A stretch of DNA of 64,000 nt from Salinirubrum litoreum. Lineage in GTDB: Archaea > Halobacteriota > Halobacteria > Halobacteriales > Haloferacaceae. Made by a program: the position numbers and the translations under genes. Positions 7,489-57,265 of this stretch are shown here, in pieces; position 1 is the stretch's first letter; each line of letters opens with the position of its first letter. The notes below the pieces were generated by a model. The model was not told the origin of the DNA and ran no database searches. It saw only the letters and a list, made by a program, of their open reading frames with translations. Where the stretch lies: assembly GCF_020567425.1 (NCBI RefSeq), contig NZ_JAJCVJ010000002.1, positions 723,068 to 787,067 of the forward strand, written 5' to 3'.

Positions 7489-7598
7489 GGCGTGGAACTT
7501 GGCGGGGCGGCTACTAATACTCGGTGACGACTGGGAGGTGGACGTGTGTTCCGGGCCAAGTGGGTGCGTTGGAGATGTGAACCTGGACGGGCCGGTCG

Positions 7599-7740
7599 CG
7601 GACGACCAGGGGTGAAAGCCCCCGGACCACGGTGTTGCGGTCAAGTGAGTCACGGACGACGAGGGGTGAAAGCCCCTGGACCACGGTGTTGCGGTCAAGT
7701 GAGTCGCGGACGACGAGGAGTGAAAGCCCCCGGCGTCTCG
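7599..7740 (+). repeat. 54-bp direct tandem repeat, about 2.6 copies
   Basis: The string cggacgac begins at 7599, 7653 and 7707, giving an exact 54-bp period. Each unit carries a small hairpin (aggggtgaaagcccc) followed by a ggaccacggtgttgcggtca segment; the third unit breaks off after its hairpin. The first two units are almost identical. The tract directly precedes the head of dispersed element copy A, whose GTGAAAGCCCCC motif is the third unit's hairpin. Confidence 0.85.
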
Positions 7741-8447
7741 ACCCTCCGGGACTCGCTGCGCCCTTCCCTCACGAGGGCGCGTCGCGTTGCTCCGCGCCCT
7801 CGTTCAGTCCAGTGCTTATGTCGTCCGGGAGGGGCCGAGACGCCGGCCCCTTTCAGTCCCACCCGGAATTAAGCGTCCCATCGCGTCGTCACTGGTTCTC
7901 ACCCGGCGTGGCGGCTGTCGATTCGGAACCCGGTTGTCGTAGTAGCTTCCCCACCCTCCCCGACTGCCGACGAGGCGACCTGCGAGCAGGTCCTCGCTGT
8001 CGCTCGGACACTGCTCTGTGTCGGTCGTCGACAGATCGCGTCCTCGTGGGGTTCCGGGCTGTCGGAGTTGTCGGGTGACGAGTGGAGTCGTGCGCTTTCG
8101 TCCGAAATTCGGCGCGCGCGAGGAACGTGCGCGAGGGAGGGACTGCGGGCGGTGCCGAGAGCAGTCCCGAGGCTGGGGAGGACGAGGTGCGGTGCTGTGC
8201 TGTCTGCGGTGCGGTTTCTCGCGCTGGCACGAGTAGCGGTGCTGAGGCGGGTTGCAGTCGCGGTGCGGTCGCGGTCGAATAGTCCGGTTGTCCCGGGTCG
8301 GGTAGCGGTGCTGTTGTGGTCGCGGTCGCGGTCTGCGGTGCTGGTGCAGTAGCAGTCGCGGTACACAGCGGAGTATCGGTCACACGTCTATCCTGCCGAG
8401 TCCATCTCACGCACCACTAAGTTCCCGCACGGCGTGCTCCCGACTGT
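7720..8447 (+). repeat. Dispersed intergenic element, copy A
   Basis: This gap of about 0.9 kb before pgk holds no convincing gene. It contains a head (gtgaaagccccc motif at 7720-7731 and ccctttcagtcccaccc at 7848-7864) whose two halves are flanked by the perfect 11-bp arms ccggcgtctcg (7730-7740) and cgagacgccgg (7836-7846). A middle block follows (about 7870-8050, including accctccccgactgc and gctgtcgctcggacactgct). Then come a two-hairpin module (8111-8168), the string gaggctggggaggacgaggt and a tail rich in gcggtgctg. Related blocks recur near 31.7, 38.9, 45.6 and 56.8 kb. Open frames inside it are Arg/Thr-rich, follow the repeat and look spurious. Confidence 0.7.
8111..8192 (+). ncRNA. 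Candidate structured RNA module, element copy A
   Basis: Hairpin 1 pairs 8113-8120 with 8126-8133 (8 bp, one G-U, loop aggaa). Hairpin 2 pairs GGGACTGC (8139-8146) with GCAGTCCC (8161-8168) around the 14-nt loop gggcggtgccgaga. The flanks gcgaggga before and gaggctggggaggacgaggt after are shared with the other copies, while the hairpin-2 stem sequence is different there and still pairs. The strand is inferred from copy B, which has a TATA box upstream. No TATA box was seen here, so expression is uncertain. Confidence 0.4.
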
Positions 8448-28688: not shown

Positions 28689-29756
28689 ATGCCGTTTCAA
28701 CCGGGGTCGTTCCTCCGCGACCTCCGTGACATCTCGGGGTGGAAGCTGAGGGCCTTCTTCGCGGTCTACTACACCTACGTCGGACTGTGGCTCACGCTCA
28801 GTACACGCGTCCGACTCGGAACACACGTCTTCGACGAGGACTGGGACCTGCTGGTCGTCCTCGACACCTGCCGCGTCGACGCACTCGAGGCCGTCGCCGA
28901 CGAGTACGACTTCCTCGACGGTGTCGGGTCGATCACCTCGCTCGGCAGTACCTCGGTGGAGTGGCTCTCCCAGACGTTCGACCGCGAGCACGCCGACCAG
29001 ATCGCCCGCACCGCCTACGTCACCGGAAAGCTCGACAGCGAGAGCATCTTCCGGGACGGCGACTACCCGCCGGCGTATCGTCAACCGCCGGCGACGTGGC
29101 CCGCGTGGGACGTGGTCTCCGCCGACGACTTCGGCCTGCTGGACGAGGTCTGGCACGACGGCACCGACGAGCGACTACGCGTCGTCCCGCCGCGACCGCT
29201 GACCGAGCGTGCGATCCGCGCCGGGCGGGAGACCGACCACGACCGACTCGTCGTCCACTACATGCAGCCGCACACGCCGTACATCGCCGAGTTGCTGTCG
29301 ACGGGTGTCGGGAGCGAGACGACCGTCCCGGCGGTCGACGCCGACCCCTTCTCGGCGCTCCGGGCGGGGTCGGTCGACCGCGCGGAGGTGTGGGATCGCT
29401 ACCTCGACAACCTCCGCCTCGTCCTCGACGACGTGGCGCTCCTCCTGGAGAACGTCGACGCGGAGCGCGTGGTGATCACGGCGGACCACGGCGAGGGCTT
29501 CGGCGAGTACGGCGTCTACGAACACCCCATCGGCTGTCCGTTCCCGACCGTCAAGCGCGTCCCGTGGGCCGTCACCACCGCCACCGACACCGGGAGCTAC
29601 CCGACCCCCTCCGGCGTTGCCGATTCCGACGTGACCGATTCCGACGTGACCGACCCGGAGGCACCCGGCGAGTCGCCGACCGAGCACATCGCACAGGACG
29701 GTGGTGTCCCCGACGGGGACGGGACCGAGAACTGTTACGGAGTCAGTAACGAGTGA
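28689..29756 (+). CDS. Alkaline-phosphatase-superfamily (sulfatase-like) protein, copy 1
   Basis: A 355-residue protein of the alkaline phosphatase/sulfatase superfamily. WDLLVVLDTCRVDAL supplies the first metal Asp and a possible nucleophile region, and ITADHGEGFGEYGVYEHP supplies the distal Asp-His and His metal ligands. There is no signal peptide; a single hydrophobic patch (FFAVYYTYVGLWLTL, about residues 22-36) may associate with the membrane. The next gene is a close paralog. Its C-terminus differs from that of copy 2: instead of DRLADLGYV it has an acidic tail with the duplicated unit DSDVT. Substrate is unknown; similar haloarchaeal genes occur in surface-glycan loci. Confidence 0.8.
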   Translation: MPFQPGSFLRDLRDISGWKLRAFFAVYYTYVGLWLTLSTRVRLGTHVFDEDWDLLVVLDTCRVDALEAVADEYDFLDGVGSITSLGSTSVEWLSQTFDREHADQIARTAYVTGKLDSESIFRDGDYPPAYRQPPATWPAWDVVSADDFGLLDEVWHDGTDERLRVVPPRPLTERAIRAGRETDHDRLVVHYMQPHTPYIAELLSTGVGSETTVPAVDADPFSALRAGSVDRAEVWDRYLDNLRLVLDDVALLLENVDAERVVITADHGEGFGEYGVYEHPIGCPFPTVKRVPWAVTTATDTGSYPTPSGVADSDVTDSDVTDPEAPGESPTEHIAQDGGVPDGDGTENCYGVSNE

Positions 29757-29847: not shown

Positions 29848-30873
29848 ATGCCGTTCCAACCGGACGCCTTCTTGGACGATCTCCGCGACTTCTCCGGGTG
29901 GAAGTCCCGCGCGTTCTTCGCGGTCTACTACACCTACGTCGGACTGTGGCTCACGCTCAGCTCTCGCGTCCGACTCGGGACACACGTCTTCGACGAGGAC
30001 TGGGACCTGCTGGTCGTCCTCGACACCTGCCGCGTCGACGCACTCCGGGCAGTCGCCGACGAGTACGACTTCCTCGGCGACGTGGCGACGGTCTGGTCGC
30101 TCGGGAGCACCTCCGACGAGTGGATGGTCCAGACGTTCGACCGCGACCACGCCGACCTGATCGCCCGCACCGCCTACGTCACCGCGAACCCGTACACCGA
30201 CGCCGTGTTCCACCGAGAGCACTACCCGCCGACCTACCGCCAACCGCCGGCGACGTGGCCCGCGTGGGACGTGGTCTCCGCCGGCGACTTCGGCCTGCTG
30301 GACGAGGTCTGGCGCTACGGCACCGACGACTCCGTGAAGGTGACGACACCGCGCGTGACGACCGACCGGGCCATCCGTGCCGGCCGAAGCGGCGACTACG
30401 ATCGTCTCGTCGCTCACTACATGCAACCGCACATTCCGTACCTCGGTCGGACGAGCGAGGCGGCCGCGACACCGGACGACCGCCTCCGGACCGACGGCGC
30501 GCTCCTCACGGCTCTCGACACACAGCCCTTCGACGCGCTCCGACAGGGCACCGCCGACCGCGCGGCGGTGTGGGACCGCTACCTCGACAACCTCCGCCTC
30601 GTCCTCGACAGCGTCGAACTCCTCCTGGAGAACGTCGACGCGGAGCGCGTGGTGATCACGGCGGACCACGGCGAGGGCTTCGGCGAGTACGGCGTCTACG
30701 AACACCCCATCGGCTGTCCCGCGCCGACGGTCAAACGCGTCCCGTGGGTCGTCACCACCGCCACCGACACCGGCGACCACGACCCGGCCCGGCACCGCGA
30801 CCCGGCGGCCGACACGGCGACAGGGGTGGAAGACGACGTCGCGGACCGACTGGCGGACCTCGGCTACGTCTGA
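29848..30873 (+). CDS. Alkaline-phosphatase-superfamily (sulfatase-like) protein, copy 2
   Basis: A 341-residue paralog of the preceding gene, starting MPFQPDAFLDDLRDFSGWK. It has the same metal-site blocks (VVLDTCRVDALRAV and ITADHGEGFGEYG). The C-terminus DVADRLADLGYV is that usual for sulfatase-like proteins, so this copy looks intact. Long stretches of DNA are identical to copy 1, notably around 30001-30040 and 30640-30720. ATG 29848 lies 91 bp after the stop of copy 1. Confidence 0.82.
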   Translation: MPFQPDAFLDDLRDFSGWKSRAFFAVYYTYVGLWLTLSSRVRLGTHVFDEDWDLLVVLDTCRVDALRAVADEYDFLGDVATVWSLGSTSDEWMVQTFDRDHADLIARTAYVTANPYTDAVFHREHYPPTYRQPPATWPAWDVVSAGDFGLLDEVWRYGTDDSVKVTTPRVTTDRAIRAGRSGDYDRLVAHYMQPHIPYLGRTSEAAATPDDRLRTDGALLTALDTQPFDALRQGTADRAAVWDRYLDNLRLVLDSVELLLENVDAERVVITADHGEGFGEYGVYEHPIGCPAPTVKRVPWVVTTATDTGDHDPARHRDPAADTATGVEDDVADRLADLGYV

Positions 30874-31656: not shown

Positions 31657-32033
31657 GCTGACGTAGACTCGGCTGGGGAAGTCGGGAGGAACCGAGTCGA
31701 ATCTGTTGTAGACACCTCGGTCGAGTCGGTTGCAGGCGACAAGGGGTGAAAGCCCCCGGCCCCTTTCAGTCCCACCCGGATTTGCGTCCCATCGCGCAGT
31801 TACTGGTCGTCACCCGCCGTGTCGTCTGTCGGTTGGGAACCCAGTTTCGCGCAGTCGTCCCCGAACCTCCCCGACTGCTGGCGACCGAACTGCGAGCAGG
31901 TCACTCGCTGTCGCTCGGACACTGCTCGGTGTCGGTCGCCACCAGATCGCGTCCTCCCAGGTTCCGGTGGTCGTCGTCTCGTCGGGGTGACGACTCTGGC
32001 GTGCGCTGGTGGGGGTTGTGAACGACCGAGATT

Positions 32034-32043
32034 GCTTATAAAT
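32034..32043 (+). promoter_or_regulatory. TATA box before the hairpin module of copy B
   Basis: The string tgcttataaat is a good archaeal TATA element in very GC-rich surroundings. A transcript starting 25-30 bp later would begin near 32065, just ahead of hairpin 1 (32077). There is no CDS downstream on this strand. Confidence 0.45.
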
Positions 32044-32069
32044 CGGGAGTTGCGTGCGATTGGACTCGA

Positions 32070-32155
32070 AACCCGGCGCGCGAGAAACGCGCGAGGGAGG
32101 CGAGGGTGGGCGGTGCGGAGAACCCTCGCCGAGGCTGGGGAGGACGAGGTGCGGG
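32070..32155 (+). ncRNA. Candidate structured RNA module, element copy B
   Basis: Hairpin 1 is CGCGCG (32077-32082), loop agaaa, CGCGCG (32088-32093). Hairpin 2 is GGCGAGGGT (32099-32107) paired with ACCCTCGCC (32122-32130), 9 perfect bp around the 14-nt loop gggcggtgcggaga. The loop differs from that of copy A by one base while the stem is entirely different. The flanks gcgagggagg and gaggctggggaggacgaggt are conserved. A TATA box lies about 35 bp upstream, which supports transcription in this direction. Confidence 0.5.
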
Positions 32156-32407
32156 TGCTGTTGCGGGTGCGGTGCTGTTGCGGGTGCGGTACTGGTGCGG
32201 TTCCGCTGGGAGGTGCGCTAGATTGCGTAGCGGTGCTGTCGCAGTCGGGGTCTGCGGTGCGGTTCCGTGCGCTAGATCGAGTAGCTGTGTCAGCGCGGGT
32301 GCGGTCACGGGTCGCAGTGTCGTTGTCGGTTACGTGCTGTTGGCCTCCCATCACGGGTCACGGTACAGTCGTCTCGTCGACGCGAGTACCGACGACTCGC
32401 CACGCGA

Positions 32408-38826: not shown

Positions 38827-39480
38827 GCCGGCTGGGGCGATTGGGACGGGTTTCTGGTGGAACGTCGGTGGGTGGAGTCGGGAGTGGATTCGTGTGCTCG
38901 TGGCTGGTGTCTTCGAGGCTACTGTGGTCCGTGGCGACAACTCTGCCGCCGGTGTTGCTTGTACGTGGGACCACGACAGCACCACGACTGCGACCGCACC
39001 AGCACCGCGCCGACTGCCTGCGAGACCCTTGGTCTCGCTCTGTTCGGTTCGTCACCGGCGCGAAGCGCCGGTTTCCAGCGAGACCGAAGGTCTCGCCCGG
39101 CTCACGAAGACGCCGACCGCACCGCGACACCACAGCAGAGTTCCAACTCACGACCAATGTACCAGTCGACCGGGCTGGCGCGACCTCCGTGTCGCGCCGA
39201 CGGTCGCAGGGAGGCGCTTCGCTGATCTGACTGCTCCACCGGGTGTTGCGTGCGTCCCCGCGAACTCTCCGGGTGGGACTGAAAGGGGCCGCGCTCTCGA
39301 CTGGTCCCCGACGAGGTAAGCACCGCAAAGCAACGAGCGAGCTTGCTCGCTCGTCGACTGAGGCGCGTGGTTCGAGAGACGCCGTCGGCGTCTCTCGTCA
39401 TCACGAGAGAGCTTCGCTCTCTCGAACGACAACGAGTCGCGGACCATCGAGAGCGCGGGGGCTTTCACCGCTCGGTGTCG
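38827..39480 (-). repeat. Dispersed intergenic element, copy C (reverse orientation, hairpin-rich)
   Basis: A gap of about 0.8 kb without a credible gene. Read on the minus strand it has the head (ggtgaaagcccccgcgctct near 39458-39476 and ggcccctttcagtcccaccc near 39270-39290) with perfect 12-bp arms, tcgagagcgcgg (39447-39458) and ccgcgctctcga (39289-39300), around a variable insert. Its tail has gcggtgctggtgcggtcgca. The insert and middle hold at least six perfect short hairpins, including GCGAGACC/GGTCTCGC twice (39020-39038 and 39078-39096), CCGGCGC/GCGCCGG (39055-39071), ACGAGCGAGC/GCTCGCTCGT (39333-39354) and CGAGAGACGCC/GGCGTCTCTCG (39373-39397). The two-hairpin module flanks are not recognisable here. 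Confidence 0.65.
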
Positions 39481-45439: not shown

Positions 45440-45872
45440 GTGTGAACCGTTGTCACTGTCTGGCAAAAATCCCCGGCAGACTCCTGTCGTGCGACCGTCT
45501 GACGTGCGAGGGTGACGGGGTGGATGGTCGGGGACGCGGGAGTCGCCGGCCTGCGGAACGACTGGCTGGACTGTCCTTCGACCGTGAGAGTACGACAGAG
45601 CGCGACAGCGACCGCGACTGCGCCGCACCCCGCACCCCGCGACCGCACAACACCGCCACGGCCCTGTACCGCCCCTCGCTCTCCACGGCCTCGACCACGG
45701 CGAGAGCGTGGCGCTCGCTAGCTCTCGTCACCGGCGCTTCGCGCCGACTGCTGGGGATCACCGGTCCCGCCCTGCTCACGTAGACCTCGCACGCGTCGTC
45801 GTCGCGCGCACCGGGAGGTTCCGTGAGACCGAACGGCGTCCGAGCGACGGGATCAGCCCACCCGACGCACAC
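45440..45872 (-). repeat. Degenerate fragment of the dispersed element, copy E
   Basis: A 0.43-kb gap without a convincing gene. On the minus strand about 45600-45660 reads as gcggtgttgtgcggtcgcgg-like units, the same as the tail of copies A-C. Short hairpins (GGCGC/GCGCC near 45733; GAGAGC/GCTCTC near 45702-45726) resemble those of copy C. The head and the two-hairpin module are not recognisable. Open frames through it are Arg/Ser-rich and repeat-derived. Confidence 0.4.
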
Positions 45873-56799: not shown

Positions 56800-57265
56800 T
56801 CGACAACGAGAGGTGAGAGCCCCCGTCGTGTCGTCACTGGTCGTCACCCGGCGAGTCGTATGCGTATTCGGAACCCGGCAGTCGCAGTACCCCCCACCCC
56901 TCCCCGACTGCTGACGACCGAACGTGCGAGTCGGTTCGCGCTATCGCTCGAACACGACTCGGTTCCGGTCGCCACCAGCTCGCGTCCTGTCGGATTCCGG
57001 GCCGTCGTCGAACTGGTCGGGTGACTGGTGGGGTCGTGTGCGTTCACACAGAGTCCGGCGCGCGCGAGAAACGCGCGTGAGGGAGGGTCGCGCGTTCAGG
57101 CGCGACCCGAGGCTGGGGAGGACCGAGGTACGGTGCTGTCGCGGTCTGCGGTGCTGATGCCGTCACTATTTGCGGTACGGTAGCAAATGACGTACTGGTG
57201 TCATCCCGGTCTACGGTACGGTGGGAGGTGCTGTACTGTACTCTCGCAGTCGTGGCCGAATTCGA
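56800..57265 (+). repeat. Dispersed intergenic element, copy D
   Basis: This 0.6-kb gap has no credible gene. It begins with a half head (gaggtgagagcccccg, 56809-56824) that lacks the second CCCCTTTCAG half. The middle block matches copies A and B (tcactggtcgtcacccggcg, attcggaacccggcagtcgc, cctccccgactgctgacgac, gccaccagctcgcgtcctg). The two-hairpin module (57059-57108), gaggctggggaggaccgagg and a short gcggtctgcggtgctg tail follow. Confidence 0.7.
57056..57134 (+). ncRNA. Candidate structured RNA module, element copy D
   Basis: Hairpin 1 is CGCGCG (57061-57066), loop agaaa, CGCGCG (57072-57077), extendable by a C-G and a G-U pair. Hairpin 2 is GGGTCGCGC (57085-57093) paired with GCGCGACCC (57100-57108), 9 perfect bp around gttcag. 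Its stem shares no alignable identity with those of copies A and B except the first two or three G, yet pairs fully. The strand is inferred by analogy with copy B. Confidence 0.4.

Follow-up and report, generated by a model that had tools for sequence, protein, structure and literature searches.

REP, BIME and REPIN sequences of bacteria are high-copy intergenic palindromes that occur in alternating orientation and are patchily distributed between relatives (PMC2817692, PMC3116915, PMC3733652). Among haloarchaeal repeats, PATEs are described as elements that lack a transposase, carry palindromes near their termini and shrink to forms made of these termini only, and SMR-A of Haloquadratum as a ~110-bp element with inverted ends that inserts into other palindromes without target duplication (both PMC3119063); one PATE is reported to be transcribed (PMC10544981), and the passages of PMC6006769 that treat archaeal Y1 transposases assign them to the IS200 subclass only. 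Here we show that a 64-kb stretch of the 4.06-Mb, five-contig genome of Salinirubrum litoreum (G000:C2:723068-787067, hereafter the window) contains members of a dispersed repeat family, no earlier description of which was found in the open-access literature searched, although the supplements of PMC3119063 might list it; where the sequences of its end boxes matched the full text of papers, the matches examined were CRISPR repeats, the rest being judged by title. Our preferred reading, which we hold tentatively, is that the many members of this family are non-autonomous palindromic DNA repeats, non-coding and intergenic, that spread at the DNA level and exchange their hairpins by means of an enzyme acting in trans.

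The original prediction placed one such family in five intergenic gaps of the window (A to E), with copies A, B and D on the plus strand and C and E reversed. A, B, C and E are members. A, B and E, which are full or near-full copies, resemble each other well beyond composition, as judged from blastn within the window (best pieces of 205, 225 and 127 bits, against a maximum of 38 bits for 200 dinucleotide shuffles of copy B); C is partial, its matches being confined to module I and short pieces of the tail, and it lacks domain II and the module III box. The orientations given for A, B (plus) and C (reversed) agree with blastn, whereas E actually lies on the plus strand. D (45706-45746, plus strand) is a lone hairpin fragment rather than a copy of the element: blastn links it to none of the other gaps at E ≤ 1e-3, and what it has in common with C (39056-39096, minus strand) is a single 41-bp stretch of 73% identity, the exact 15-mer CGGCGCTTCGCGCCG being present in both. 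As had been noted, the gene contexts are varied, A being divergent, B convergent, E tandem and C situated between two plus-strand genes. Elsewhere in the window, tandem paralogues at 28689-29756 and 29848-30873 (355 and 341 aa) share blocks that are 85-94% identical; neither matches a Pfam family at 1e-5.

Read on the plus strand of copy B, the element consists of module I, ~90 bases, domain II, a spacer, module III and a tail. Two fixed boxes, L (GGTGAAAGCCCC) and R (GGCCCCTTTCAGTCCCACCC), bound the hairpin of module I, whose long, interrupted stem has further hairpins nested in it; from box to box, both counted, the module measures 34 to 388 bases among the copies listed, and usually 90 or more. 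Domain II comprises an outer and an inner stem, and module III two hairpins followed by CGAGGCTGGGGAGGA, beyond which lie short repeats of the GTGCGGT type; relative to module I, module III may point either way. Copy A, whose plus-strand similarity to B and E was established by blastn, occupies the whole gap between two called genes (7489-8447) and contains 54-bp units at 7595-7756, each of which carries an L box (7611-7622, 7665-7676 and 7719-7730; TRF and box search). Its module I (7719-7864) runs from the last of these boxes through a long interrupted stem with an inner hairpin to the R box at 7845-7864, and is followed by domain II (7956-8043) and by module III (8110-8182), whose two hairpins are accompanied by GAGGCTGGGGAGGA. 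Copy B, which likewise spans its gap between gene calls (31657-32407, plus strand), has a short-form module I at 31745-31777, where the L box (31745-31756) adjoins the R box (31758-31777) and hairpin arms are missing; domain II lies at 31867-31954, module III at 32074-32144 and the tail of GTGCGGT-type repeats at 32145-32350, the end of the latter being approximate (TRF and sequence). Copy E retains a degenerate L box (56812-56823), domain II (56900-56987) and module III (57056-57122), all on the plus strand, but no R box was found in it and its module I is mostly lost. On the minus strand, module I of copy C (39271-39469; R box 39271-39290, L box 39458-39469) has a nested double hairpin. Double hairpins with a CGTCATC-type linker are nested in this way inside module I across genera (L061, L063, L198 and window 39271-39469), as if they were a separate inserted unit. 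Tandem arrays detected by TRF flank the L box on its left side in 12 of the 34 copies considered, and module III on its right side in 21 of the 36; the right tail of L023 contains about seven copies of an 18-bp unit, GCCACGCTTTCAGTTCCA, adjoining module III.

The family extends far beyond the window, so that the figure of five copies is a gross underestimate. The genome has 93 sites that match the R end box, CTTTCAGTCCCACCCG, with up to two mismatches, against two for a reversed-pattern control; for the module III motif the numbers are 158 and 30. All but two of the 93 R boxes map to the two largest contigs, which we infer to be the chromosome: C1 has 46 (26.9 per Mb) and C2 45 (30.5 per Mb), followed by one each on C3 (1.7) and C4 (5.6) and none on C5 (0). 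A genome-wide search with copy B, which had been suggested, also reached many further places (40 of 314 first-look candidates were scored), and 38 copies ranked by their likeness to copy B were fetched and compared with those of the window. Neighbouring boxes within 5 kb of each other face inwards in six cases, outwards in three and in the same direction in five; the closest pair, 29 bp apart, is of the last kind, and no facing pair lies within 700 bp. Part of copy B had no match in a plasmid collection and part of copy A none in a phage collection, both at 1e-5.

As claimed, no copy examined lies inside a gene. Forty-eight hits to the domain II motif in the window and the 38 fetched loci resolve into 41 intergenic, blast-supported copies, the lone hit in D and six chance matches, which are short and fall within genes predicted by a simple codon-usage script. 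The copies are non-coding, as had been proposed: their gap runs have lengths of 1, 2 or 0 modulo 3 in 95, 23 and 14 cases, respectively, variability is nearly equal across the three codon phases, and any single reading frame is open in at most 9 of 38 copies. Spurious Arg/Thr-rich ORFs do occur (R 13-27% and T 5-15% in eight examined), and six of the spurious ORFs have no Pfam hit at E ≤ 0.1; we reject a protein-coding reading in view of the frame-breaking gaps, missing codon periodicity and the lack of a Pfam hit. These repeats generate long false reading frames and, with them, a risk for annotation.

While the sequences of the hairpin arms vary between copies, their Watson-Crick pairing is retained (0.90-0.93 observed, 0.44-0.47 shuffled). 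The helices are supported by covariation, as would be expected of structured non-coding RNAs. For module III, where 32 hairpins have 19 distinct 5′ arms, paired positions amount to 0.929, against a shuffled mean of 0.44 (maximum 0.619 of 2000 shuffles; 21 distinct pairs); for module I the value is 0.90 against 0.47 (maximum 0.548; 71 distinct pairs, drawn from this genome and others), computed in the register chosen for pairing.

In other genomes, the exact 20-base core of the R box was found in 74 stretches with a named source, all but one titled as haloarchaea. An L-like box lies up to 450 bases upstream in 56 of these loci and the module III motif up to 450 bases away in 18, and none of the 74 hits falls in a predicted gene. 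With at most one mismatch the box is present in 32 of 60 genomes, the own included, with between 1 and 92 copies each (the control totals 1 across all genomes), a count of zero being no proof of absence since diverged forms such as that of L138 exist. Copy B as query matches 28 of the 60 genomes, again including its own, mostly through the R box and module III; domain II has no match elsewhere among the best candidates scored (up to 10 per genome), and the genomes returned include no second one of the same genus. The 114 boxes of 94 other-genome loci are mostly single, and where two lie within 700 bp they always face each other (16 facing pairs, 0 outward, 0 same-direction), with 15-27 bases between the boxes in 12 pairs and 162-333 bases plus module III in the other four. 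The one stretch with another title, L086 (PXTT01000034.1), is filed as a Bacteroidetes MAG and carries the haloarchaeal L and R boxes; it is probably a misplaced contig or binning error. Among the loci L075, L096, L109 and L098, a 4746-bp stretch with an R box occurs twice at 100% identity on a plasmid of Halorientalis marina and has a 96.4% relative in Halobellus clavatus, and in Haloprofundus marisrubri two genes that read as toxin-antitoxin-like differ in their position relative to the hairpin.

Comparison of two intergenic sites with conserved flanks across 11 genomes of one genus reveals presence, shrinkage and absence of the element at orthologous positions. At site 1, a hairpin is found in G065, G067 and G066 and a 30-bp core in G031 and G068; the element is decayed in G070 and, doubtfully, in G069, and G004, G062, G063 and G064 have none. 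At site 2, where G066 is left out of the presence/absence count (4 present, 6 absent), G031, G065, G067 and G070 carry a block made of module I, a spacer, module III and a facing module I, with the left unit cut to its L box in G067 and module III decayed in G070; G004, G062, G063, G064, G068 and G069 have no block, only 56-91 bases between the matched flanks. In our reading several independent changes would be needed at site 2 whichever state is ancestral, the support of deep nodes in the flank tree (1934 columns) being 0.04-0.72. The original prediction had suggested looking for target-site duplications, and the occupied and empty alleles of this site show no clear one. In a second genus (three genomes, one site) the element is present in G016 and G061, with G060 matched at the left flank only.

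The arms themselves can turn over. In the sister genomes G065 and G067 (support 1.000), those at site 1 are unrelated in sequence, each pair being self-complementary; the same two genomes have common arms at site 2, where G031 and G070 differ, so that turnover is not general. The outer site 1 arms of G067 match another place in this genome at 90 and 89%, which suggests exchange between sites, although the match falls short of identity. Just outside the L box at site 2 of G067 (L226) lie many repeats of a 15-bp unit, TTCGCGGTCGTCGTG, suggestive of slippage at the base of the hairpin. In G031, seven matches to part of the site 1 query at C1:1867556-1867971 are spaced by exactly 60 bp and form a tandem array.

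Could the family be a signal used by the host and kept by selection, such as a transcription insulator, a terminator, an mRNA-stabilising hairpin or a chromosome-organising site? The constant intergenic placement of the copies examined, the concentration of nearly all copies on two contigs and their position beside ordinary and housekeeping genes (coding for a phosphoglycerate-kinase-like protein, pyruvate kinase and eIF-5A, for example) would be compatible with this. It is nevertheless improbable, because the contexts of the 41 own copies (25 tandem, 10 convergent and 6 divergent) are not far from those of the 58 gene pairs in the window (43, 7 and 8). The R cores of other genomes fall between divergent genes in 24 cases, tandem genes in 33 and convergent genes in 6, with 11 at an edge; divergent pairs, 24 of the 63 placed hits as opposed to 102 of 485 in the background, are common enough to argue against a 3′-end role. 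Moreover, 28 of the 60 genomes have no box at one mismatch or less (some possibly carry diverged forms), and the element is lost at orthologous sites. We judge it similarly unlikely that the family is a PATE or another IS200/IS605 derivative, with boxes that represent the fused ends of an IS605-type transposon minus its genes. Copy B and site 1 of G031 and G068 do resemble the terminal-only short forms reported for PATEs. Against a parent of this type, neither L nor R box was found in the 1.8-3.3 kb examined at each of the 15 TnpB-type and 3 Y1-type loci of the genome, four of these 18 IS200/IS605 loci having just a single hit to the domain II or module III motif, and TnpB-like sequence, searched with 15 query proteins from the 18 loci, occurs in just 2 of the 74 box loci, more than 4 kb away. 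A related autonomous element, whose existence had been raised with the target-site duplications, was also not found among the 16 genes enclosed by the six facing box pairs of the own genome (2-5 kb apart); 14 of these belong to ordinary Pfam families (one below the cut-off only), including TruD, SOR/SNZ, succinyl-CoA-ligase-like, L37ae, Pcc1, TtuA-like, NUDIX and DoxX, and two have no family.

More serious, though we still consider it rather less probable than the DNA-repeat reading, is the possibility that the element, or at least its module III in some copies, is the gene of a multicopy structured RNA, transcribed in these copies from a start just before the first module III hairpin, on the plus strand of copy B; a second RNA could be read through module I in the direction R to L. 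In its favour, a ~50-bp insert with TATA-like boxes, resembling GGGGTATAAAAACGTTCGAAATCGCTTATAAACCCCGAGTTGCGTGCG when aligned, separates domain II from module III in 10 of the 36 own copies with both (B, L009-L015, L017 and L024), a fraction probably overstated because the fetched copies were ranked by likeness to the insert-bearing copy B; the other 26 do without it. In copy B its TATA-like box, TTATAAAT (32036-32043, plus strand), lies ~37 bases 5′ of the first hairpin, and in three copies measured the second TATA-like box precedes this hairpin by 37-39 bases. The first box has eroded or disappeared in B, L011 and L013, and L024 and L009 carry variants of the second. TATA-like hexamers are otherwise rare (31 on one strand of the own loci, which total 198.8 kb, insert copies included), a 23-base insert pattern with up to three mismatches has six matches in the genome, all within insert copies by position, and none in controls, and the next gene runs in the same direction in only 4 of the 10 insert copies (13 of the 26 without), so that the promoter is not simply that of this gene. 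The insert thus strengthens the RNA explanation at the expense of the DNA-repeat reading, and in some of the copies transcription may run through module III. An RNA would also require exact pairing at fixed positions, and in other genomes module I has more A-C than G-T mismatches (19 to 6, p=0.015), as have the own module I arms (8 to 3) and domain II (21 to 9), a pattern that an R-to-L transcript would give. No such wobble bias is seen in module III (5 G-T and 4 A-C; 13 and 14 in another count) or in a separate count of nine own module I arm pairs (2 and 2), and since the copies share ancestry these numbers are not independent. Further points weigh against an RNA gene: a TATA-like box lies close upstream in only 1 of 36 module III hits of other genomes, module III takes either orientation relative to module I, and an Rfam scan of the window at gathering thresholds returned nothing but two tRNAs.

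Returning to a DNA repeat, its basic unit would be module I, which in the own genome belongs to a I-II-III composite edged by short tandem repeats. Copies would spread and swap hairpins as DNA, probably while single-stranded, driven by a putative enzyme supplied in trans, and deletion between the boxes would remove the hairpins and leave a ~30-bp core like that of copy B. Such an element would have no fixed role toward its neighbours, and a minority of copies may in addition be transcribed from a promoter of their own. Within tandem gene pairs, D set aside, 15 copies are oriented with the genes and 10 against them. A counterpoint is that site 2 may record losses of the element instead of gains. 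A more specific version, which we regard as unlikely yet worth stating, is a widespread, RAYT-free haloarchaeal REP-like system, in which an enzyme reads the two boxes while the DNA is single-stranded and swaps the hairpin that they enclose, and some copies, having acquired a promoter, express a module III RNA that may participate; if this were true, sites could hold different but self-complementary arm pairs. Arms that can differ entirely between sister species at one site, within fixed boxes, offer a way to study how the two arms of an inverted repeat are kept complementary, and the promoter-like insert of some copies makes the conversion of a mobile hairpin into an RNA gene testable.

In summary, despite a way of working like that of REP and BIME sequences, the family does not qualify as either REP or PATE, the comparison with PATE and SMR elements being based on their descriptions. 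As with REP, BIME and REPIN sequences, its members are dispersed, intergenic, palindromic and patchily distributed, with a copy number in the tens to hundreds. REP sequences, however, are 20-40 bp long with a GTAG or CGTC foot, unlike module I with its 34-388 bases (only the core-deleted form being ~30 bp) and no such foot, its nested inner hairpins and its variable arms; nor was a RAYT-type transposase flanked by the repeat found, the three Y1_Tnp loci lacking both boxes. It is size, feet and the missing RAYT that separate the family from REP. REPINs are inverted REP doublets. In other genomes all 16 close pairs of boxes face each other, but most boxes there are single, and the own genome has no facing pair closer than 700 bp. 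Like PATEs, members are transposase-free, non-coding, palindromic and haloarchaeal, with core-deleted short forms (PMC3119063); unlike them, they show no tie to IS605-type ends in the 18 transposon and 74 box loci. MITEs are approached in that the repeat is non-coding and dispersed, with inverted ends where boxes face each other, but neither a parent transposon (18 IS200/IS605 loci, 16 enclosed genes) nor a clear target-site duplication (site 2) was found. The double hairpins nested in module I look similar in layout to SMR-A as described. REP-like repeats are known from bacteria together with their transposases, the RAYTs; the related design described here from many haloarchaea, in which no RAYT was found, speaks for a different mobiliser.
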